Shown here: piece after piece, positions 8,768 to 42,130 of the stretch
How positions within the stretch are numbered: position 1 is the stretch's first letter
How the letters are laid out: each line of letters begins with the position of its first letter
Origin: Gammaproteobacteria bacterium
GTDB lineage: Bacteria > Pseudomonadota > Gammaproteobacteria > CAIRSR01
NCBI GenBank assembly: GCA_963575655.1
Contig: CAUYTY010000088.1
Coordinates: forward strand, 1-50,737
Length of the DNA: 50,737 bases
Direction: 5' to 3'
The notes under the pieces: generated by a model
The model's database searches: none
Told to the model about the DNA's origin: nothing
The model's input: the letters and a program-made list of their open reading frames with translations, nothing else
Made by a program: the position numbers and the translations under genes

Positions 8768-9244
8768 CTACATCCCGCCAACTTCCGACCACTCATCATC
8801 ACTGAGCAGTTTATTCAGGTCGACCAAGATGAGTAGCACATCACCCCGACTGGAAACGCCCAATATGTAACGGGAAGTCTCCTCGTTGCCAACGTTTGGG
8901 GCGGTTTCGATCTCGGAGGCGCGCAGATCAACAACCTCTGCCACGCTATCCACCAAAATACCTACTACCTGCTTTTCGGCCTCGATGATCACAATGCGCG
9001 AGGCATCGTCCGGATCTCGAGAAGTAAGATTGAAACGACGCCGTGCGTCAATTACCGTCACGACGTTACCACGCAAATTAATAATGCCTAAGACGTAATC
9101 CGGGGCACCAGGGACCGGAGCAATCTCGGTCACTCGCAACACCTCCTGCACTTGCATCACATTGATACCATAGGCCTCATTATCCAGTCGGAAGGTGACC
9201 CAGCGCAATACTGGGTCTTTAGGGGTTGCGGTGGTAATATTCAT
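8768..9244 (-). CDS. cheW: Chemotaxis coupling protein CheW
   Basis: A typical CheW of 158 residues linking chemoreceptors to CheA in the polar array. Signature strands: RWVTFRLDNEAYGINVMQVQ, then VPGAPDYVLGIINLRGNVVTV (receptor/CheA-binding core), then GILVDSVAEVVDL. GTG at 9274 would extend it by ten residues; ATG 9244 is preferred because GGAG lies upstream of it. It sits between parP and DUF2802, as in Pseudomonas. Confidence 0.95.
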   Translation of the reverse strand: MNITTATPKDPVLRWVTFRLDNEAYGINVMQVQEVLRVTEIAPVPGAPDYVLGIINLRGNVVTVIDARRRFNLTSRDPDDASRIVIIEAEKQVVGILVDSVAEVVDLRASEIETAPNVGNEETSRYILGVSSRGDVLLILVDLNKLLSDDEWSEVGGM

Positions 9245-9405
9245 CTGATTATTAACTCCATTGGAAGTGCGCACACGACGGGTCTAGCGTCGCAATTAGG
9301 ATATTTGTTTGGGGCAGGAAACTATTTTCACGCCATGGACCTGCTTTATTTAATCAAAAAACACCATCGGAAATTTCAAATTTCACCCTCCAATATCCTT
9401 TTCGA

Positions 9406-10278
9406 TCAGGTCTCGGGTTCTTCCAGACGCCCGGCCTTGAGCAACCGTACCAGGGATGGGACATCAAGTAGGGCACATAAGCGTTCTTTAACCGTTCCGG
9501 CGAGCCAGGAACGACGCCCGCGTTCTCCGCGCCAACGTACTTCTTCGGGTTTTAGGGAAACGACACGATCCACCGCATCGCAGGCCAAGCCAAATCGCCC
9601 CCCACCAAGCACGATCAGGTAACGTGGATTGGAACGACTCCGGGTAGCCTCTCGCAGATTTTCGGGGACAAACAGGTCAATGCTATCGACCACCATTAGA
9701 TTGGCATCGCGGTGACGGATGACCCCCAGCCCCCAGGAAGGGAGGCCAGGAACCGCCGAGAGTCGTGCTGGGTAGCGCAGAATACCGTTAAGTTCCACCA
9801 AGGGTACGGCTACCGTTAGCCCCGCGACCTGGAACAGTAGGGTTTGGAATGGCTGGGTGGGAATTGTAGGAACGGTCGCCGTTACCGGGGCCTGGACTGG
9901 TGCCCGGGCGGGTGCCTGTGTTGGGGTCTGAACCGGTGCTTTCGTCGGGGCTGGGGTTTTGACCGCAGTTGGTGTCGGGGTTGCTACCGGAGGAGGGGGC
10001 GGAGTCGGGGCCGGTGTTGGTGGGGCCACTGGCTCAGAGCGTAGCTCAAGATCGCGGGTACGTACCGGTACTGGAACCGCGACGTTGGCCACACTGGCCA
10101 CCTCCACGGGTACCGCCGCACGGGCGACGGCAGGTAGCGTCGCACCCACGGTCGGAGTAAGGGCCTGGTGGGGAGGGACCTCAGCCGGGGTGGGCGACGT
10201 TTCTCGCAGCAGGGCATCCAGATACAGACCCAATGCCTGCTCAGGATTGGCAAGGTCCAACATTACGGGATTGATCAC
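9406..10278 (-). CDS. parP: ParP-type CheW-domain protein (polar array organiser)
   Basis: 290 residues: a short N-terminal part, a Pro/Ala/Thr-rich linker (about 75-150, with repeated TPAPTPPPPP-like and KAPVQTPTQAPARAPVQAP units), and a C-terminal CheW-like domain (about 152-280; QTLLFQVAGLTVAVPLVELN, then GLGVIRHRDANLMVVD). In Vibrio and Pseudomonas, ParP links ParC to CheA and keeps the chemosensory array at the flagellated pole. The assignment rests on the domain plus position: its ATG overlaps the parC stop (ATGA at 10275-10278) and cheW follows. The proline linker is compositionally biased and rich in direct repeats, so its length may vary between strains. Confidence 0.85.
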   Translation of the reverse strand: MINPVMLDLANPEQALGLYLDALLRETSPTPAEVPPHQALTPTVGATLPAVARAAVPVEVASVANVAVPVPVRTRDLELRSEPVAPPTPAPTPPPPPVATPTPTAVKTPAPTKAPVQTPTQAPARAPVQAPVTATVPTIPTQPFQTLLFQVAGLTVAVPLVELNGILRYPARLSAVPGLPSWGLGVIRHRDANLMVVDSIDLFVPENLREATRSRSNPRYLIVLGGGRFGLACDAVDRVVSLKPEEVRWRGERGRRSWLAGTVKERLCALLDVPSLVRLLKAGRLEEPET

Positions 10279-11168
10279 TCCGCGCCCCCTCCGACGACTT
10301 TTCGCTCTCCCCTTGGTGAAGGAGAGGGACCTCCCGGTGTAACCGTCCGGGACCGTACTGCCGTGGCCGTAGTACCGGTAAGAACCTTAAAAAGATCTCG
10401 ATAGGCGAGTGCGCCGGGACTTGGTCGCATCATCTGGGTCAACAACCCCCCCGAACGACCCACTTCACGAAGCTGCGTATCCACCGGGATCATCCCCCCC
10501 CACACCTGTCCCGGTAACCCCCCTGGTAGCGCCGCAGGACCGGGTGGATGTGACGAATGCAAAATTTCCAGGGTTTCCCGTGAAACACGCGTTCGTCGGT
10601 CGTAGAGGGTCGGAACGATGAGGCAGGACAGGGGCGGGCGTCGGTTCCGATTCAGCATCTGCAAGGTGCGTATCATGCGTTCCAGACCATGCAACGCCAG
10701 AGGTTCGGTCTGGACGGGGATAACCAGGTAGTCCGCCGCAGCCAAGGCATTGATCATGAGTACTCCAAGCATCGGCGGGCAATCCACCAAGACCCGATCG
10801 TAGTGTCCAAGGGGACCTGCCAGCGTGCGCGCAAGGACCAACCCCATACCGTCACGGGTACTAAGCTGGCGGTCGAGCGTCGCCAGGGCGGTGGCCGCTG
10901 GCAGCAGTGACAACCCCGTCGTTCCAGTGGGTCGCACCATTTCGGTTGGCAATGCACTGCCGTTGGCTGCGGCCTGAAATAGGGTGTAGGAACTTGGATT
11001 CAGACTCTCTGCGTCAAAGCCAAAATAGGCACTGAGAGATCCATGAGGGTCGAAATCCACAAGGAGGACCTTTTCGCCACGGGCCGCCGCCCAGGCAGCG
11101 AGCATAACCGCCGTTGTGGTCTTGCCTACTCCGCCTTTTTGATTGGCTACGGTCCAAACAATCATCAA
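10275..11168 (-). CDS. parC: ParC, ParA/MinD-type ATPase for polar chemotaxis localisation
   Basis: A 297-residue ParA-like ATPase. The deviant Walker A is QKGGVGKTTT (residues 10-19), Walker A' is VLLVDFDPHGSLS, and Walker B is VLVDCPPMLG. In polar-flagellate gammaproteobacteria ParC forms a polar gradient and recruits ParP and CheA. Relative to relatives there is a small Pro/Gly insert (about 228-242, HPPGPAALPGGLPG). The last 25 or so residues (SRTVTPGGPSPSPRGERK...) are encoded by a hairpin repeat at 10305-10326, so the C-terminus has been rebuilt by an inserted palindrome. It overlaps parP by four bases. Confidence 0.9.
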   Translation of the reverse strand: MMIVWTVANQKGGVGKTTTAVMLAAWAAARGEKVLLVDFDPHGSLSAYFGFDAESLNPSSYTLFQAAANGSALPTEMVRPTGTTGLSLLPAATALATLDRQLSTRDGMGLVLARTLAGPLGHYDRVLVDCPPMLGVLMINALAAADYLVIPVQTEPLALHGLERMIRTLQMLNRNRRPPLSCLIVPTLYDRRTRVSRETLEILHSSHPPGPAALPGGLPGQVWGGMIPVDTQLREVGRSGGLLTQMMRPSPGALAYRDLFKVLTGTTATAVRSRTVTPGGPSPSPRGERKVVGGGAE

Positions 11169-11181
11169 ATCCTCGATTCGG

Positions 11182-11793
11182 TCAATTCGCCTTTGCCGCC
11201 CCCGGCTCTACCTCGGATGCACGACGCATCTCGGGTTGAGCGAGGATCTGCAATACTACCCGCCGATTTTTATTGCGCCCCTCGGGGGTTGCATTATCCG
11301 CTGTGGGACGGTACTCCCCATATCCCACGGCAGCCATGCGCTCAGGTTTCATCCCGAGTTTATTAAACAGATGCACCACGCTTGCCGCACGTCCCGCCGA
11401 CAATTCCCAATTCGAAGGATAGGCGACTGAGTTGATTGGTCGATCATCGGTAAATCCTCCAACCTGGACGGGATTCGGGAAATTTTTGAGAATCTCTGCC
11501 ACTTTACTTAGGATGGGCTGAGCAGTTTGCTCTAAGGCCGCGCTCCCACTGGGAAATAGAATACTGGTTTTGATCTCAACCTCAAGCCAGAGTTTATCTC
11601 TACGGACGGTGATCAGATCTTTGTCCATGAAACTACCAAGGTTCTCCCCAATTTCCTTGGAGATAAGGTCCAAGGCCCGCTGACCGGTGAGGTCTTGGGC
11701 AGCATCCGCCGATTTTTCCTCTGTGGGCGAGTCAGGCCTTCCCGCTGGGACCGGGGGAGAGATACCGAGGTGGGGGGGGGGCGTCTCGTTCAA
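11182..11793 (-). CDS. motD: MotD, C-terminal part (OmpA-like peptidoglycan-binding domain), frame 2
   Basis: The second half of a frame-split stator gene. After the poly-C tract, residues about 25-200 hold an OmpA/MotB-type domain that anchors the flagellar stator to peptidoglycan: ILFPSGSAALEQTAQPIL, VGGFTDDRPI, and NWELSAGRAASVVHLF, then RPTADNATPEGRNKNRRVVL. The listed start is a TTG inside the upstream half and has no reason to be used. Removing one of ten C (plus-strand G run 11772-11781) fuses both halves into one ordinary MotD of about 350 residues. See the upstream half and the finding. Confidence 0.85.
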   Translation of the reverse strand: MNETPPPHLGISPPVPAGRPDSPTEEKSADAAQDLTGQRALDLISKEIGENLGSFMDKDLITVRRDKLWLEVEIKTSILFPSGSAALEQTAQPILSKVAEILKNFPNPVQVGGFTDDRPINSVAYPSNWELSAGRAASVVHLFNKLGMKPERMAAVGYGEYRPTADNATPEGRNKNRRVVLQILAQPEMRRASEVEPGAAKAN

Positions 11794-12241
11794 TTTTATC
11801 CGGTACCGGAGACTTTACCAATTGTCCCACTTGGATGGGTTCCAGGCTTTTGGGCGATGAACGAAAAGCCGCCACCATTGATTCTGAGAGGACCCGATAC
11901 TTTCCCTCGTTTACAGACGAAATAGCGTACATTACCACGAAAAAAGCAAATAATAAGGTGATGAAATCTGCGTAGGACACCAACCAGCGTTCGTGATTTT
12001 CCGACTCTTCGTGGCGTTTTCTCCGACGCGTAGTAGTAATTTTTGGTATGACAATAGTCTTATTTCGATCAGCGGTAACGCGCTGTTTGCGACGACCCCA
12101 ATCTGAAGCTTCACCACCCGGTTGAATATTTCTCTTGAGGACTGATGAAGCACCACCGGGCGGCTGCATGGTAACGAAGTCATCGCGAGGTGTCTCCTCA
12201 CCCTCAGGATTTGCTAGCGTTCCGAGGTATTTGTCAGCCAT
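11732..12241 (-). CDS. motD: MotD, N-terminal part (membrane segment), frame 1
   Basis: First half of the MotB-family stator protein MotD. A charged cytoplasmic N-terminus (basic stretch near 75-90, TTTRRRKRHEE) is followed by the single membrane helix WLVSYADFITLLFAFFVVMY, which carries the proton-binding Asp of the stator (YADF). A plug-like segment follows. The frame then runs through ten C and ends after about 17 foreign residues at 11732. Alone it lacks the peptidoglycan-binding domain. It starts two bases after motC ends, so the pair is translated together. Sequencing error, phase variation or real mutation cannot be told apart here. Confidence 0.9.
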   Translation of the reverse strand: MADKYLGTLANPEGEETPRDDFVTMQPPGGASSVLKRNIQPGGEASDWGRRKQRVTADRNKTIVIPKITTTRRRKRHEESENHERWLVSYADFITLLFAFFVVMYAISSVNEGKYRVLSESMVAAFRSSPKSLEPIQVGQLVKSPVPDKIERDAPPPPRYLSPGPSGKA

Positions 12242-12243
12242 AA

Positions 12244-12984
12244 CTATTCAATATAACCCATCAGTTTTATTTCTATTACTCGTGGATTGACACCTTCGGC
12301 AATTCCAGTTAGGCCCTCTACCACCATCTGACGCATTTCGCTTTGGGTCAGGATCAGCGCTTTAAGTTTACTGGCCACGGGCAGGAAAAACAGGTTCGCA
12401 CAACCCACCCCGTAGATAGTGGCCACGAAAGAAGTGGCGATACCAGGACCCAAGGTACCAGGGTCGGCCAGGCTGTTCATCACATGGATGAGCCCCATTA
12501 CCGCACCAATGATACCGATAGTGGGGCTGTAGCCCCCCATGCTCTCAAAGACTCTGGCGGCACGCAGGTCGTGTTCTTCTCGCACATCGACTTCAAGCTC
12601 TAGCACTGCGCGGATGGCCGCTGGCTCGATCCCGTCGACGAGGAGCTGTAACCCTTTTTTGAGGAAGGGGTCTTTCTCGGTCTCGGCGATTATCTCCAGG
12701 CCCAACAGACCTTCCTTACGAGCCAAAGTACTCCACCGTGTCAGCATATCCACCATGGATTGTTGCGGTCCGGTTGGTCCCTGGAACACCCAGGGGAGCA
12801 GGTGCAGGGCGCGTATGAATACCGCAAATGGAGATTGGAGCATCACCGCCCCGCAGGTCCCTCCAAGCACGATGAAGGCGGCGGGGAAATTGAGAAGGCT
12901 AGATAGGTGCCCCCCCTCTAGAACCTGGCCCACCAAAACGCCGCCAAGCCCCAGCAGAATTCCGGTGACACTCAAGACATCCAT
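12244..12984 (-). CDS. motC: Flagellar stator protein MotC (MotA family)
   Basis: A 246-residue MotA/ExbB-type inner-membrane protein with four membrane helices (about 5-25, 32-50, 148-170, 180-202). Conserved signatures: FPAAFIVLGGTCGAVML, and the pore-lining SPTIGIIGAVMGLIHVMNSL. The cytoplasmic loop between helices 2 and 3 carries the charged residues that contact FliG. It lies between cheB and motD, exactly the Pseudomonas motC-motD position. MotCD stators serve high-load and surface motility in Pseudomonas; that role here is inferred. Confidence 0.95.
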   Translation of the reverse strand: MDVLSVTGILLGLGGVLVGQVLEGGHLSSLLNFPAAFIVLGGTCGAVMLQSPFAVFIRALHLLPWVFQGPTGPQQSMVDMLTRWSTLARKEGLLGLEIIAETEKDPFLKKGLQLLVDGIEPAAIRAVLELEVDVREEHDLRAARVFESMGGYSPTIGIIGAVMGLIHVMNSLADPGTLGPGIATSFVATIYGVGCANLFFLPVASKLKALILTQSEMRQMVVEGLTGIAEGVNPRVIEIKLMGYIE

Positions 12985-12996
12985 GGAGTCCTTACC

Positions 12997-14079
12997 TTAC
13001 ACACCCGCCGCCAGGGCGGGTCCCAGATCTGAAAGTGGCAGTACCTGATCTGCGAGTCCGGCCTCTACTACCGCCATTGGCATCCCGTAGACTACGCAGC
13101 TTGCCTCATTCTGAGCCCATACCGTGGAATTGCCTTGCTTGAGCAGACGTGCTCCCTCCCGCCCGTCAGACCCCATACCGGTGAGGATCAACGCCAACAC
13201 CTGGCCCGGAAAGGCCCGTGCGGCTGAGGAGAAGGTCACATCGACGCTGGGCCGGTAGTGTAGGTTGGGGTCTGAGTCTCGCACTAGAACCCTTGTTCCA
13301 CGGTCGTCCAGGAACATTTGTTTCCCCCCAGGGGCGAGCAGTGCCGTACCTCGGGTGAGGATGTCGCCATCCTGCGCTTCCCGTACACGCACCTGACAGA
13401 GTTGGTCCAGACGAGCGGCAAAAGTTGGGGTGAAGGTCGCCGGCATGTGTTGTATCAGGAGCAGTGGTAGCGGAAAAGAGGCGGGTAGCCGGGTCAGGAT
13501 CTCTTGCAAGGCCACTGGTCCCCCGGTAGAGGTACCGATAACCACCAACCGATAATCACGTCGTGCTCGATGTGGCGCAGGATGGGGTGTTGCGTGCGGT
13601 GTCGGAGAGGTAGCAGGTTGAAGGAGCTTCAGGGGGGGAGGTGGTTGGACAGCGGGACGTTGCACCGCTGGTTGCCGCACTCCACGCCGACCGAGCAGAC
13701 ACACCCGTTGGCGGAGTTCATTCAAAGCCTGTTCACGCTCGGTAGCGATATCCTCGAATCGCTTGGGCAAGAAATCCATCGCCCCAGCATCCAATGCATC
13801 GAGGGTCGACTTGGCCCCCTCACTGGTTAGTGAGGAAAACATCAAGATGGGTGTAGGACGGCGTCGCATAATCTCGCGCACTGCTGCGATCCCATCCATC
13901 ACCGGCATTTCCACATCCATTGTCACCACATCCGGTTGTAGTGCGAGCACCTGGTCTACCGCCTCCCGCCCATTAGCGGCGCTGCCCACCACACGAATCA
14001 TCGGATCGGCAGTGAGGATCTCGGTAAGACGCCGCCGGAAAAAACCGGAGTCGTCTACCACCAGGGCCCGTACGGGCAT
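12997..14079 (-). CDS. cheB: Chemotaxis protein-glutamate methylesterase CheB
   Basis: 360 residues. The N-terminal receiver domain (1-120) has the phospho-acceptor Asp55 (VVTMDVEMPVMDG). A Pro-rich linker follows (about 140-170). The C-terminal methylesterase/deamidase domain (175-355) shows the catalytic Ser in GTSTGGPVAL, the His in LIQHMPATFT, and the Asp in GMGSDGREGA. It demethylates receptor glutamates for adaptation. In relatives cheA lies directly upstream; here 736 bases of debris intervene, so a separate promoter may be needed. motC follows after 12 bases. Confidence 0.95.
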   Translation of the reverse strand: MPVRALVVDDSGFFRRRLTEILTADPMIRVVGSAANGREAVDQVLALQPDVVTMDVEMPVMDGIAAVREIMRRRPTPILMFSSLTSEGAKSTLDALDAGAMDFLPKRFEDIATEREQALNELRQRVCLLGRRGVRQPAVQRPAVQPPPPLKLLQPATSPTPHATPHPAPHRARRDYRLVVIGTSTGGPVALQEILTRLPASFPLPLLLIQHMPATFTPTFAARLDQLCQVRVREAQDGDILTRGTALLAPGGKQMFLDDRGTRVLVRDSDPNLHYRPSVDVTFSSAARAFPGQVLALILTGMGSDGREGARLLKQGNSTVWAQNEASCVVYGMPMAVVEAGLADQVLPLSDLGPALAAGV

Positions 14080-14226
14080 AATTGATGCCTCCTCTATAAG
14101 AGTTGTTGGCGCGTCGCAAGTTGGAACAAACCGCTATTCCGGAATATTCCTGTCGGAACGATGAAACAAATGGTCCCTATTTTGTTGTCCGTGTTTGCAA
14201 GGCAAGAATATTTTGTTGAAATTGAG

Positions 14227-14440
14227 CTAGGTGGCAATATCCACATGTTCTGTCAGACCTTTTGGGGGTTGGGATGGGAAGATGATCCTCTCGCATTCCT
14301 TCTAAATGAAATTTAATGGTTTCCTTAATTTGTTGTTTTGTCTCTTCAATAGTTTTCCCGGTTGCAATACATCCAGGCAAATCAGAAACGTATGCTGAGT
14401 ACTTGGATGTTGCCCTTTCTATTACAATGGCATAACGCAT
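14227..14440 (-). pseudogene. hicB: hicB antitoxin remnant, frameshifted near the 3' end
   Basis: A HicB-type antitoxin. MRYAIVIERATSKYSAYVSD, DLPGCIATGKTIEE and FHLEGMREDHLPIPTPK are the standard N-terminal domain. After PIPTPK the frame slips: as read it runs on into unrelated residues to 14177. Dropping one A of the AAAA run gives the usual HicB ending GLTEHVDIAT then TAG at 14227-14229. The start ATG 14440 overlaps the hicA remnant. Both genes of the pair carry lesions, so the module is most likely dead. Confidence 0.8.
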
Positions 14441-14608
14441 TTTAGATGCCACTTCCAACCAGCTTGCTTATAAATACTACTTCTGTGTGCCCGGAGCCAG
14501 GTCATTACCTGGTTTTTCAGGAACAGTAACACGTCTTGGTTTGGTTTTATGCTTGAATTGGCGATGACTTCCCTTTGTTGCAACAAGTTTCCAATCATTA
14601 TTATTCAA
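14422..14608 (-). pseudogene. hicA: hicA toxin remnant, 5'-truncated and frameshifted
   Basis: Reading the minus strand from 14608 gives WKLVATKGSHRQFKHKTKP, then RRVTVPEKPGNDLAPGTQK and a stop at 14477-14479. The HicA core with the catalytic-His motif GSHRQF is intact. One base later the frame continues SIYKQAGW, the normal HicA C-terminus, ending inside hicB. The N-terminus is missing: a TGA stands at 14612-14614, right where intergenic repeat sequence begins. HicA is a dsRBD-fold mRNA interferase. Loss of about ten N-terminal residues and the internal frameshift indicate inactivation. Confidence 0.8.
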
Positions 14609-14611
14609 TCG

Positions 14612-14735
14612 TCATTCTGGTAGGGATTGCCAGAGTCCATACCTATAGATAGCTTAGTTGGTGACTTCACGTCCCAGTGCCCTGGATTCTGGCAATTTCC
14701 GCCAGAATGGCGAATATATGACAGCTTGAGTCATC
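14612..14735. repeat. Degenerate dispersed intergenic repeat
   Basis: The block from about 14645 to 14735 (TAGTTGGTGACTTCACGTCC, then CAGTGCC...GCCAGAATGGCG...AGCTTGAGTC) matches 46026-46118 with many differences. Related GCCAGAATGACG or CATTCTGG fragments recur elsewhere (for example near 14612 and 35614). It truncates hicA at its left border. Confidence 0.45.
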
Positions 14736-14765
14736 CAGCAGACACCACCGGAAACCAAGGACTAC

Positions 14766-14793
14766 CCCCCCTCTCCTGTTAAAGAGAGGGGGG
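14766..14793. terminator. Stem-loop downstream of cheA
   Basis: The arms CCCCCCTCTC (14766-14775) and GAGAGGGGGG (14784-14793) are perfectly complementary around an 8-base loop, 23 bases beyond the cheA stop on the minus strand. It lacks a U tract. Similar CTCTCC/GGAGAG hairpins occur at 10305-10326 and near 22975 and 44283, so it belongs to a dispersed family and may only incidentally terminate cheA transcription. Confidence 0.45.
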
Positions 14794-14815
14794 GGTGGGG
14801 AGTTTCCGATAATGT

Positions 14816-16861
14816 CTAGTGTTGGCGACCGTAGATCTTAATTAGGCTTGGCACATCCAGGATTAAGGCAATGCGACCATCTCCGGTAATTGTGGCCCCT
14901 GCCATACCTTGGGTACCGTGGAGCAGGGCTCCCAATGGTTTGATGACCACTTCCTCTTGCCCGATCAGCTGATCCACTACGAAACCGAAGCGGGTCGTTC
15001 CAACACTGACCACTACCACGAAACCGTTTCCCATGTCGTAATCACTACCATCATGGATGAGCCAACGGCGCAGATAAAATAGCGGGAGGGGTTTGTTGCG
15101 CACCACTACGACCCGTTGACCGTCTACCACGTTAGTACGGGAAAGGTCTAAGTGGAAAATCTCGTTCACATTCGCGAGCGGCAGCGCAAAGATCTGGCGT
15201 CCCAGCACCACCATTAGAGTTGGCATGATGGCTAGCGTCAGAGGCACTTTCATTACGATATTGCTGCCGTAGCCAAGACGCGAACTAATCTCAATGCTGC
15301 CATTGAGCTGATTAAGGCGAGTCTTTACCACATCCATCCCCACCCCACGCCCGGAGACATCGGAGATCTCGGTCTTCGTGGAGAATCCAGGGAGGAAGAT
15401 CAGGTCGAAACACTCGCGAGGGCTCAAGCGCGCCGCCACATCGGGGTCCATGAGTCCCTTCTCGACCACCTTCTGACGGAGTTTTTCCGCATCCATGCCC
15501 GCACCGTCGTCTGCAATAGTGAGGAGGATATGGTCGCCCTCCTGGGCAGCGGACAGGATCACCGTCCCGATCTTGGATTTTCCGGCCTGCTCACGCACCG
15601 CTGGGGCCTCGATACCGTGATCGACCGCATTGCGTACCAGATGCACCAAGGGATCGGCCAAGGCCTCCACCAGATTTTTATCGAGGTCGGTATCCTCACC
15701 TTCCATGATGAGGTTGATCTCCTTGTTTAAGGAGCGTGCCAAGTCTCGAACTACTCGGGGGAAACGACCGAATACCTTCTTGATTGGCTGCATCCGGGTC
15801 TTCATGACCTCGTTTTGCAGGTTGGCTGTGACTAGGTCCAGGTGACTGACTGCCTTGCTCGTCTCGTCATCATTCCGTCCGCCTTGGAGAGTAACCAAGC
15901 GGTTTCGTACCAACACCAACTCGCCCACCATATTCATGATGCTATCGAGTAGGCGGGTATCCACCCGGACGGTGGTCTCGGTCGCAACGCCCTTAGAGCC
16001 TCCATCTGTAGCTGCGGTCTTGGAGACTACCTCCGCCGCTGGTTCCGCAGTAGCAGGAGGAGCCGGGGCTGGTTGTGGGGTAGGACGGGGTGGGGATGCC
16101 GGCGCGTGACGGGCCGCAACAGCCGGGGGGGGAGGCAACGCAGCAGCCGGCGAGACAGGGCCACGACCGTGGAGCTGGTCAAGCAGACCCTCGAACTCAT
16201 CCTCGGTGATGAGGTCATCCCCAACGACTTCTTCAACAACCGACACCTCTGTCTCAATCCGTGGACGCGGCGAGAGTACGAGGGCAGAGTCTGTATCCGA
16301 GCCCTTACTGTGCAGGGCATCTAACAGGGCCTCGAATTCGGCGTCGGTGATATCGTCCTGGGCCTCTTCTTCGGCTGGCGGCGCAGCAACGGCCTGGGCA
16401 CGGGGCGCTACCACCGCTCGAGGGGGTGGAGGAGGTGGCGGAGGTGGCGGCGGAGGTGGTGGCGCCGCTGCTGCGGGCAGTGCCAAAGACTGCAAACGCT
16501 TGATCAGAGCGGGACTCGCCGGTGAAGGCTCTTCCCGGCGCTTGAGTTGGCTGAACATCCCGTTGAGACTGTCCAGCACTTGCAGCACTGCGTCCATCAG
16601 GTCCGCATCTACCTCTCGCTGTCCCTGACGTAGGCAATTAAACACGTCTTCGGCCTGATGACAGGCATCCACCATGGATGTGAGGTTAAGAAAACCGCCA
16701 CCACCCTTGATGGTATGAAAGGCCCGGAAGACCGCGTTCAGCAGTCCCATATCGTGGGGCCGCTGTTCCAGATCGACGAGTTGCTCGCCCAAATGTTCCA
16801 GCAACTCCCCCGCTTCGACCATGAAATCTTGTAGGATTTCGTCGTCCACGGCGATGGTCAT
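14816..16861 (-). CDS. cheA: Chemotaxis histidine kinase CheA (flagellar)
   Basis: A 681-residue CheA. HPt domain 1-115 with phospho-acceptor His49 (FRAFHTIKGG). A long biased linker (124-330) includes 14 consecutive prolines (134-147) and two copies of an acidic motif, DDITDAEFEALLDALH (169-184) and DLITEDEFEGLLDQLH (216-231). A dimerisation domain follows, then HATPase_c with LVRNAVDHGIE and SGRGVGMDVVKTR, and a C-terminal CheW domain (about 545-678). The two motifs sit where Vibrio CheA binds ParP/ParC, so a localisation role is inferred. The start is ATG 16861, with GGAG ten bases upstream; the longer frame to 16942 is unlikely. cheY and cheZ are not upstream, as they would be in Pseudomonas. 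Confidence 0.95.
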   Translation of the reverse strand: MTIAVDDEILQDFMVEAGELLEHLGEQLVDLEQRPHDMGLLNAVFRAFHTIKGGGGFLNLTSMVDACHQAEDVFNCLRQGQREVDADLMDAVLQVLDSLNGMFSQLKRREEPSPASPALIKRLQSLALPAAAAPPPPPPPPPPPPPPRAVVAPRAQAVAAPPAEEEAQDDITDAEFEALLDALHSKGSDTDSALVLSPRPRIETEVSVVEEVVGDDLITEDEFEGLLDQLHGRGPVSPAAALPPPPAVAARHAPASPPRPTPQPAPAPPATAEPAAEVVSKTAATDGGSKGVATETTVRVDTRLLDSIMNMVGELVLVRNRLVTLQGGRNDDETSKAVSHLDLVTANLQNEVMKTRMQPIKKVFGRFPRVVRDLARSLNKEINLIMEGEDTDLDKNLVEALADPLVHLVRNAVDHGIEAPAVREQAGKSKIGTVILSAAQEGDHILLTIADDGAGMDAEKLRQKVVEKGLMDPDVAARLSPRECFDLIFLPGFSTKTEISDVSGRGVGMDVVKTRLNQLNGSIEISSRLGYGSNIVMKVPLTLAIMPTLMVVLGRQIFALPLANVNEIFHLDLSRTNVVDGQRVVVVRNKPLPLFYLRRWLIHDGSDYDMGNGFVVVVSVGTTRFGFVVDQLIGQEEVVIKPLGALLHGTQGMAGATITGDGRIALILDVPSLIKIYGRQH

Positions 16862-17054
16862 ATCAGCAACTCTCCGCACCGGCCCATTGCCGACATTGGC
16901 AGTACAGGCCATTGATACACTGGTAGAAAACCACGTTACCAACCAAATACCTCACCGAGAGCACCAAACCCGTGCTACCACCGGCAGAGGATCGAAGGCG
17001 TTAATATATACTACCTCAAATGCACTGGGATCCAGGTTCCGTACCTAAGTACCA

Positions 17055-21123: not shown

Positions 21124-21661
21124 GCGTAGGATTGCAACCCGCTGAATGTGGAATCGTAGGTTGGGCTGATGCAAAAGGTCCAACCTATGGTCGGGCGCCA
21201 TTACCTAGGTGATCAAAAACAAGATCATCAGGATACGTTAGTTGTTACAAATATGAGGACGGATTCTTATAGATGTGATTTCTCTAATGCCAATAAAGAA
21301 TTCGGCGTGGCGTATTCAATATTGTAAATGTCAAGAAGACTACTTCCAAATGGGCGCGATGCCTTGAATATGACGGGGGCGGGTGGCGATTTTGTTGTCT
21401 ATTGGTCGTCTGGACCAATGAACCTAATTAGTTACGGTCGTGCTTTTAATAAGTTTCAGCGTAAGCGCCGGTTAACCTATTGTTGGTTGTTGTCAAGGTA
21501 ATAACGCGCGAAAGGTTGTGCTCCTGAGCGTGTAGTGGAGAGTTTGTCTGGCTTTGTCCAAACATGCTACTAGAAAGAAATCAGGTAGACTCTCTGGTTC
21601 GGAATCCAGTAAAGCCCGTTGCGGTAATTCCAAAGACGAGGCCAGATTTTAGGGGATCATT
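21124..21661. other. 538-base spacer with a small palindrome
   Basis: No gene-like frame is seen. An 8-bp inverted repeat, TAGGTTGG (21157-21164) / CCAACCTA (21180-21187), lies 34 bases past the preceding stop. It uses the same GTAGGTTGGG core as the larger hairpin at 36876-36910. The promoter of the parA-like gene should lie in the right half. Confidence 0.5.
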
Positions 21662-22357
21662 GTGTCGAAGAAACCGACCACCGTGCCGGGCAAAAATCAG
21701 AAAAAGGAGACCAAGCAACCTATGATCATTCTGGTAGGAAACCTTAAAGGTGGGACGGGGAAAAGTACCATCGCCTTTAATCTGGCGGTATGGTCAGCCT
21801 ATCAACAACGGCGCACCCTGCTGGTGGATGCCGATCCTCAACATACCACCTCTGATTTTATTACCCTGCGTCGCGAAGAGGGCCACCAGCCCATGATCTA
21901 CAGCCTCGTGGCCGAGGAGCGTCGTTTGGGAGAAGAACTTAGCAATGTCGAAAACATCTTCGAGAATATCGTGGTGGACATTGCAGCGGGGGATCGTGAA
22001 TCCTTCCGTGCCGCGCTCAAAGTAGCTGATCGTCTTGTTATTCCTCTGTTACCTGGTCAGGCCGATGTCTGGGCGTTGCACAACGTGATGGAACTGGTCA
22101 ATGCTGCTCGATTCGAAAAACCTTCCTTGGAGGTTATTGCCGTAATCAATCGAGCCGACACCAATGCCCAGGTACGCGAAACTCAGGAAACCGAAGAGGC
22201 CCTACGACAAATTGGGCTGCCTATCGCAAAGGTACAGATCGGAAATCGCGTTACCTTCCGGCGCAGTCTTACCGAGGGATTGGGTGTGATCGAATGGGAA
22301 CCTCGTTCTCGGGCTGCAAAAGAAATGGAGGCACTGGCCAAAGAGGTGCTGACATGA
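21662..22357 (+). CDS. ParA-family ATPase paired with a transposase-like DNA-binding protein
   Basis: A 231-residue ParA/MinD-type ATPase of the short partition class. A basic N-terminal tail (1-20) precedes the deviant Walker A LKGGTGKST (28-36, with both lysines), TLLVDADPQHTTSDF (Walker A') and IVVDIAAGDRE (Walker B region). It lacks the N-terminal DNA-binding domain of large plasmid ParA proteins. GTG 21662 is supported by GGGG six bases upstream; an ATG at 21722 is possible. Its stop overlaps the next gene's ATG (ATGA at 22354-22357). No ParB or parS sites are seen nearby, so the partner is presumably the overlapping downstream protein. Confidence 0.9.
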   Translation: MSKKPTTVPGKNQKKETKQPMIILVGNLKGGTGKSTIAFNLAVWSAYQQRRTLLVDADPQHTTSDFITLRREEGHQPMIYSLVAEERRLGEELSNVENIFENIVVDIAAGDRESFRAALKVADRLVIPLLPGQADVWALHNVMELVNAARFEKPSLEVIAVINRADTNAQVRETQETEEALRQIGLPIAKVQIGNRVTFRRSLTEGLGVIEWEPRSRAAKEMEALAKEVLT

Positions 22358-22899
22358 ATACGGCGGATCCACAACACTCTCTACTGACCTCCGATCAGAT
22401 CGATAATCTGCGCTCTACCGCAAAGAATATGTATGGCGCCAACCGTCGCTCCTTTCAGGCCGAGATCACCATACAGTATTGTCATGGTAGCGCTCGAAAA
22501 GCCGAGAAGATATTTGGCTGGGGACGCCGTACCATTAAAATCGGATTAGCTGAACGTAAGGCCGGGGTTGTCTGTGTTGGAGCCCAACCCGCCTTTTGTG
22601 GTAGTAAAATCTGGGAAGAACGTTATCCAGAAGCGGCCGGAAAATTGCGTGAATTGATCGAGACCCACTTTCAGCCAGCTTCAGAGCTACGCTCCCCAGC
22701 CACCGTTCCTCGCTTGACTTCTAAAAAGGTCTTAAATAGACTGAGCAAATTAGTACCTGAGGAATATTTGCCCTCACTCAGTACCATGGATAATATTCTT
22801 ATCCGCATGGGTTATCGTATTCGTAAGAGTAAAACGCATCATCCGCAGCAAAAGATCGAGGAAACTGATCGCACCTTTGCCGCTGCCGAGAATGTCTAA
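22354..22899 (+). CDS. ISAzo13-type transposase N-terminal domain as a stand-alone protein
   Basis: 181 residues matching, from memory of the family, only the N-terminal part of ISAzo13-family transposases: a helix-turn-helix (YCHGSARKAEKIFGWGRRTI), then GAQPAFCGSKIWEERYPEAA, then TSKKVLNRLSKLVPEEYLPS and STMDNILIRMGYRIRKSK with HHPQQKIEETDRTFA. The DDE catalytic domain that should follow is absent. Translation stops at TAA 22897-22899 and the sequence beyond shows no transposase similarity in the same frame. The reading frame is clean and overlaps parA by four bases, arguing for a maintained two-gene unit. It could be a domesticated DNA-binding adaptor for the ATPase, or a fortuitous truncation. 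Confidence 0.75.
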   Translation: MNTADPQHSLLTSDQIDNLRSTAKNMYGANRRSFQAEITIQYCHGSARKAEKIFGWGRRTIKIGLAERKAGVVCVGAQPAFCGSKIWEERYPEAAGKLRELIETHFQPASELRSPATVPRLTSKKVLNRLSKLVPEEYLPSLSTMDNILIRMGYRIRKSKTHHPQQKIEETDRTFAAAENV

Positions 22900-41449: not shown

Positions 41450-42130
41450 TTATGTTTTTATGATTTTCCTAAATATAATCAATGCACAACCTAAATGAAC
41501 CATCGCCAAGTAATTTCTTGCTTTACAGATGTAACGGGTACGAATCGCCCGAAAACCTTTCACCCAGGCAATTGTTCGCTCGACCACCCAGCGTCGGGCG
41601 GTACGCGCTTTCTTTCCTTTCCCGATTTTCTTTTCACCAATGCGGCGAATGTGTGGAACATAATCATTTTCCCTCACTTCTTTTTCGACGCGAGGGTAGT
41701 CGTACCCTTTATCTAAGCACATATTTTGGGGACGTTCTGGCGTCGGTTTAGGGCGCGGGAGAATATCGGTTTCCAACGTTAAGGAGACTAAACGGCTATC
41801 GTGGACATTGGCTCCAACAACAACTACTCCCAAAGGTATTCCATCTTGATCCACATGCAAATGGAATTTACTTCCGCTACGTCCTCGGTCGGTCGGATTA
41901 TGTCCTAATCCTTCTTCCGCCAAACATACTATCTGCCCCCGTACGGGCGCTTGTACCAATGAACCATCCATAGACTGCCATTCCCACCTAACGTCTTTAA
42001 GTTCTTGATACTCTTCAGAACTTAAACGAAGAATTTCACGAAAAACGCCAGCGACCTCCCATTGTTGAAAGTGCTCATGAACCGTACTCTTTGAGCCATA
42101 GATTAGTTGTGTCAAAGGTTTTTGCGGCAT
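41450..42130 (-). CDS. IS5-family (ISL2/IS1031-like) transposase, N-terminally truncated
   Basis: 226 residues with the complete DDE catalytic core: Asp in QSMDGSLVQAP, NPTDRGRSGSKFHL, Asp in CLDKGYDYPRVEKE, and Glu in RRWVVERTIAWVKGFRAIRT. The N-terminus begins within the conserved YGSKSTVHEHFQQWEVAGVF, so about 60 residues present in full IS5-type proteins are missing; an in-frame TAA lies just upstream of the ATG. The upstream sequence does not show the missing part in another frame. One IS end seems to lie at 41423; the opposite end is not found. Probably an inactive deleted copy. Confidence 0.85.
   Translation of the reverse strand: MPQKPLTQLIYGSKSTVHEHFQQWEVAGVFREILRLSSEEYQELKDVRWEWQSMDGSLVQAPVRGQIVCLAEEGLGHNPTDRGRSGSKFHLHVDQDGIPLGVVVVGANVHDSRLVSLTLETDILPRPKPTPERPQNMCLDKGYDYPRVEKEVRENDYVPHIRRIGEKKIGKGKKARTARRWVVERTIAWVKGFRAIRTRYICKARNYLAMVHLGCALIIFRKIIKT

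Follow-up and report, generated by a model that had tools for sequence, protein, structure and literature searches.

A gene derived from an ISAzo13-type transposase overlaps a chromosomal parA gene in one gammaproteobacterial genus

In a stretch of 50,737 nucleotides from a gammaproteobacterial genome, hereafter the window, a chromosomal gene for a ParA-type ATPase is followed, with an overlap of four bases, by a gene whose product corresponds to the N-terminal region of ISAzo13-type transposases and lacks the catalytic DDE domain. This second protein, referred to as OrfA, is very probably domesticated, that is, a fixed, selected and immobile remnant of a mobile element, and it is probably a working host protein; its partnership with the ATPase is plausible, at a little less than an even chance. 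ParA-type ATPases have a great variety of partners, most of them of unknown origin, and the locus provides a before/after comparison: of two sister genera that share this ParA, one lacks and the other has the captured DNA-binding module of a transposase. The features concerned are the following:

21722..22357, + strand: parA, with corrected start ATG 21722; encodes a 211-residue ParA-type protein, a small, type Ib-like deviant Walker A ATPase
22354..22357, + strand: start/stop overlap ATGA, found by sequence comparison; GTGA in the sister species
22354..22899, + strand: OrfA-like gene; encodes a free-standing ISAzo13-type transposase N-terminal DNA-binding protein (putative) of 181 residues, DDE domain absent
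22825..22899, + strand: C-terminal tail of OrfA, codons 158-181, unconstrained remnant of the DDE-side linker; contains what is left of an IS OrfB start

The parA gene, its overlapping neighbour and the surrounding locus

The product of the first gene belongs to the ParA partition ATPases, since it combines the KGGxGK[ST] signature with a match to a ParA-family profile. The deviant Walker A motif LKGGTGKST is intact, in agreement with the initial annotation; the NCBIfam model ParA_partition is matched over its entire length (203/203 positions) with 167 bits, below the equivalog cut-off of 180, and the ParA-type Pfam families AAA_31, CbiA and MipZ are matched above cut-off. The protein is small and devoid of an N-terminal extension, like the ParAs of type Ib plasmids, and ParF (PDB 4dzz) is among its best sequence matches in the PDB. 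Its plasmid relatives are up to 39% identical, its orthologues beside ridA are 93% identical within the genus and 84-89% identical in the sister genus, and in a phylogenetic tree it forms a clade of its own. The gene had been annotated from GTG 21662, but ATG 21722 is most likely the true start to judge from sequence comparison: this codon, the GAGA upstream of it and the protein downstream are kept in four related genomes, and the GTG is unlikely because the open frame of the sister species reaches only about 7 codons 5' of the ATG position.

The second gene runs from ATG 22354 to the stop codon at 22897-22899. Both frames are open and undamaged, and joined by the ATGA overlap, as had been described. 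A Shine-Dalgarno-like GAGG lies within the 3' end of parA and, together with the overlap, suggests that the two genes are translationally coupled. The parA stop codon of the window genus falls in the OrfA start, and the last ParA codons read VLT-stop there as opposed to VLL-stop in the sister genus.

Homology to the ISAzo13 family covers the N-terminal DNA-binding region of the transposase and no DDE catalytic domain. The NCBIfam model transpos_ISAzo13 matches OrfA with 34 bits over positions 3-155 of 387, short of the full-length cut-off of 200, and Pfam DDE_Tnp_ISAZ013 gives 20 bits over positions 12-76 of 308 only, which is below cut-off. The protein ends at a clean stop, and a hidden DDE remnant behind it was rejected: tblastn with OrfB found none 3' of OrfA in the window or the sister locus, and neither did a reading of the 3' frames in both species. 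The claim that the gene retains only the N-terminal part of the transposase is thus borne out. Pfam and NCBIfam profile searches detected no ParB or ribbon-helix-helix match in OrfA.

That OrfA binds DNA is inferred from its homology to the transposase DNA-recognition region and from a predicted helical model of the helix-turn-helix (HTH) type. For residues 11-70 (domain 1), the model confidently shows four helices, two of which form an HTH-like pair, and a second, less certain winged-helix-like region is predicted at about residues 123-151. Fold comparison of this model gave nothing at E <= 0.001; tandem-HTH proteins, such as the paired domain, Noc and the Hsmar1 domain, are among the weak matches, which do not count as evidence.

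The region had been described as full of broken IS elements, a picture that does not hold: the immediate neighbours of the pair are housekeeping genes (glmM, an NAD-dependent epimerase gene, ridA, lptD and surA), and the only clear trace of an IS that profile searches of the tested window proteins brought up is a transposase fragment with a DDE_Tnp_1 domain at 41450-42130. Some 480 bp of additional non-coding DNA, present in a single copy, separate the epimerase gene from parA in the window (21124-21640), compared with a spacing of 70-120 bp in G003 of the sister genus and G001 of the same genus; the 517 bp upstream of parA were considered as a repeated element, and this was rejected since they are single-copy. 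A chemotaxis cluster with a ParA-type ATPase of its own (10275-11168) occupies 8768-16942, and in G002, the other sister-genus genome, the window-type parA stands directly after the chemotaxis cluster, which points to a rearrangement upstream of parA. All four family genomes encode a second ParA (L130:372-1034, L131:2063-2725, L132:3591-4268 and L134:1837-2514), 34-37% identical to that of the window. Downstream of it, in the same orientation, lies the gene for a protein that begins with MTNSQPRASRPSAIRRRPQ or a similar sequence and has an apparent membrane segment; the two that were checked have no Pfam match, and the second ParA and this adjoining MTNSQPRASRPSAIRRRPQ protein are a possible ParA-partner pair.

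Ancestry, distribution and selection of OrfA

The nearest relatives of OrfA outside the genus, with about 43-50% identity over nearly the whole length, are the OrfA proteins of ISAzo13-type elements, which are mostly of a two-ORF, frameshifted type. Cyanobacteria are their main hosts; a few come from Chromatiaceae and Myxococcota, and more distant ones from Planctomycetota. A DDE-bearing OrfB follows in nearly all of these IS homologues, the exceptions being truncated copies or copies at contig ends. In those cyanobacterial copies that were examined, the OrfA start lies about 85 bp in from the end of the element, behind an inverted repeat beginning TAGGTGATTTCT; the OrfA start codon of the window overlaps the parA stop, and the left end and leader of the element have therefore been lost. 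No terminal inverted repeats were recognised around the OrfA unit: matches to the cyanobacterial IS end are at chance level, a comparison in which diverged ends could be missed. A full ISAzo13 transposase was detected neither in the source genome nor in its three nearest relatives. A trace of OrfB appears to survive in the OrfA tail, where QQKIEETDRTF resembles the KKIPETDAIF of IS OrfB starts (compared with several OrfB starts and with the fused IS protein of L054). A phage or viral origin and a known defence gene were likewise considered and rejected, as the respective searches, including PADLOC, gave no match. Many of the ISAzo13-type elements (L005-L012, L038-L116) have two ORFs with a change of frame at an A-rich stretch (KAKPQKK), possibly a site of programmed frameshifting; the ISAzo13 family models are single-ORF, and L054 carries a version fused in frame.

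The parA-orfA pair recurs in G001, the sole other genome examined of the same genus, at the same locus between the epimerase gene and ridA-lptD and with the four-base overlap kept as GTGA instead of ATGA. Outside the genus, no ParA was found beside OrfA homologues among 79 homologous loci, nine plasmid loci and the matches from 369 genomes of the class. A scan of 398 genomes of the phylum yielded just four further OrfA hits, all weak and partial, and the initial contig scan with a single OrfA protein as query had given no match. The co-occurrence across distant taxa envisaged by the initial annotation was thus not encountered in hundreds of class and phylum genomes. A widespread ParA-OrfA module was rejected, and the pair is a lineage-specific innovation confined to one genus among the loci and genomes searched.

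Comparison of the two species reveals how the gene has evolved. In the core of OrfA, of which 151 codons up to residue 160 were aligned, 112 residues (74%) are identical, and differences at codon positions 1, 2 and 3 number 36, 15 and 85, even though synonymous sites are saturated (dS) and the flanking intergenic DNA has no significant similarity, aligning no better than shuffled sequence. When the same substitutions were placed at random in 5000 selection-free simulations, the best simulated core retained 88 identities, compared with the 112 observed, and 99% gained a stop codon. The check on neutrality that had been suggested for the second gene therefore comes out as purifying selection. 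After residue 157 the picture changes to 13/13/16 differences and 5 identical residues out of 24, so drift is confined to this tail, which is what is left of the DDE-side linker. Phylogenetically, the two OrfA proteins of the genus form one clade (support 100/99), and a long stem (0.87) separates it from every IS copy. A single capture is assumed because the junction is identical in both species, and on this assumption the evidence supports purifying selection on the DNA-binding core ever since.

A fixed and shared locus, lost mobility and purifying selection are the marks of a domesticated mobile-element gene, and all three are found here: the second species has the same locus and overlap, the core is selected, and no ISAzo13 copies were found in these genomes, which upholds the earlier suggestion of selection and domestication. 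The opposite reading, that OrfA is no more than a truncated transposase in decay next to an orphan parA, would fit the loss of the DDE domain, the neutral tail and the restriction to one genus; it is nevertheless disfavoured, and of very slight probability, in view of purifying selection over residues 1-157 at saturated dS and of simulations that nearly always gain a stop and never reach the observed identity.

Possible roles of OrfA beside ParA

The sister genus shows the locus without OrfA. The corresponding parA of G002 (89% identity to that of the window) and of G003 (84%) immediately precedes ridA, from which no more than about 45 bp separate it. The parsimonious reading is that OrfA was gained within one genus beside an old chromosomal ParA; the reverse polarity, loss of OrfA in the sister genus, is the less parsimonious alternative. 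Between the window and G001, identity is 93% for ParA, 70% for the epimerase and 80% for RidA, and between the window and G002 it is 89% for ParA and 65% for RidA. ParA is thus conserved better than its flanking proteins and its ancestral role appears to be independent of OrfA; the sister-genus ParA does without it.

Selection on OrfA is read directly from the species comparison, and the route of its capture may be reconstructed as follows. In the ancestor of the genus, an ISAzo13-type element would have inserted beside a chromosomal parA that was already old and stood alone, and would then have lost its left end with the leader of about 85 bp, which would have brought the OrfA start codon to overlap the parA stop, as well as its catalytic OrfB. 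What remained would be a bicistronic operon whose second protein retains, under purifying selection, the DNA-binding module of the transposase with its bipartite helix-turn-helix. To judge from the overlap, the amounts of ParA and OrfA are probably coupled through translation from a single mRNA. OrfA might then bind specific DNA sites and act with ParA as an adaptor resembling ParB or ParG, and possibly also repress the operon, as type Ib centromere-binding proteins do.

By analogy with such operons, OrfA is tentatively regarded as the DNA-binding accessory of the parA operon and as an adaptor for ParA, at somewhat under an even chance. The parA-parB/parG gene order is matched by a small type Ib-like ParA followed by a small, putatively DNA-binding cistron. 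Against this reading, the pair occurs in two genomes only, and in the sister genus ParA is strongly conserved although OrfA is absent. Nor were the other components of a parABS system found at the locus: the gene adjoining parA is ISAzo13 OrfA-like instead of encoding ParB or a ribbon-helix-helix partner, no repeat family near the operon goes beyond two-copy matches of a chance type, and no block is conserved with the sister species. The search for conserved DNA motifs, which the initial annotation had proposed, likewise found no site resembling parS, an operator or IS ends conserved near the pair between the two species carrying it. The wider reading, in which a chromosomal ParA has acquired a young ParB analogue through a captured transposase DNA-recognition module, with the OrfA-less state still visible in the sister genus, is possible but held with somewhat lower confidence.

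Persistence of ParA without OrfA in the sister genus also suits the idea that OrfA is a domesticated transcription regulator of the parA operon or of other genes, with operators derived from IS ends or from elsewhere, and not the positioning partner of ParA. The retained and selected DNA-binding module would serve such a function equally, and the co-option of HTH proteins of mobile elements as regulators is well documented and has been reviewed (PMC8987985). This explanation is unlikely, though to be taken seriously: no operator-like sequence upstream of parA is conserved between the two species, and a regulator would not require tight translational coupling with parA.

The high conservation of the sister-genus ParA in the absence of OrfA could, in addition, mean that OrfA is a functional host DNA-binding protein unrelated to ParA, its overlap being an accident of the deletion of the IS left end that was kept for expression. 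The exact overlap has persisted in two species despite saturated synonymous divergence, which speaks against an accident but is also expected if the overlap merely provides translation; such independence from ParA is considered quite improbable.

Finally, OrfA might repress ISAzo13-type elements or confer immunity against them, occupying IS ends without a DDE part and so poisoning transposition. OrfA-only products of other IS families, such as InsA of IS1 and OrfA of IS911, repress transposition, and the two OrfA-carrying genomes contain no ISAzo13 elements; however, the two sister-genus genomes without OrfA are free of them as well, selection of this kind would be intermittent, and the coupling to parA is left unexplained, so that this role has a low probability.

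Comparison with known systems

The adaptor reading of OrfA can be placed beside several known arrangements. ISAzo13-type two-ORF elements, mainly cyanobacterial, share with the window an OrfA that is homologous almost over its full length, including R48, E51, G55-W56 and R58; there, however, OrfB follows in nearly all copies, those that were examined are bounded by IS ends, and a neighbouring ParA was not found, whereas in the window OrfB and the ends are gone and parA precedes. The type Ib plasmid partition systems of the ParF-ParG type likewise combine, in one operon, a ParA of about 210 residues lacking an N-terminal HTH with a gene for a small DNA-binding protein. Their partner proteins (ParG or omega) are ribbon-helix-helix proteins that bind centromeres and often repress the operon, whereas the candidate partner in the window is a transposase-derived HTH protein, the locus is chromosomal and no centromere array was found. 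A recurring chromosomal ParA-TPR operon is found among gammaproteobacterial relatives of the window ParA (L017:1501-3029, L018, L021 and L024), with ParAs that are 40-46% identical to it; the second gene there encodes divergent TPR proteins with an apparent N-terminal membrane segment, and such a partner was not detected in the genomes of the window family. Among the papers that literature searches listed, none shows a ParA whose partner derives from a transposase.

The best analogy is offered by SETMAR, in which the Hsmar1 transposon landed downstream of the human SET methylase gene, and purifying selection acts on the DNA-binding domain of the transposase, whereas its catalytic domain drifts (PMC6326780). 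Both cases involve a transposon downstream of a host gene and selection on its DNA-binding part; SETMAR is a primate protein fusion, whereas the present locus consists of two overlapping bacterial genes from which the catalytic domain has been lost altogether. The locus is thus a prokaryotic parallel of SETMAR, in that the DNA-binding part of a transposon is kept and its catalytic part decays, and if OrfA is indeed the partner of ParA, it illustrates how systems for partition or positioning can acquire DNA specificity in a single step.
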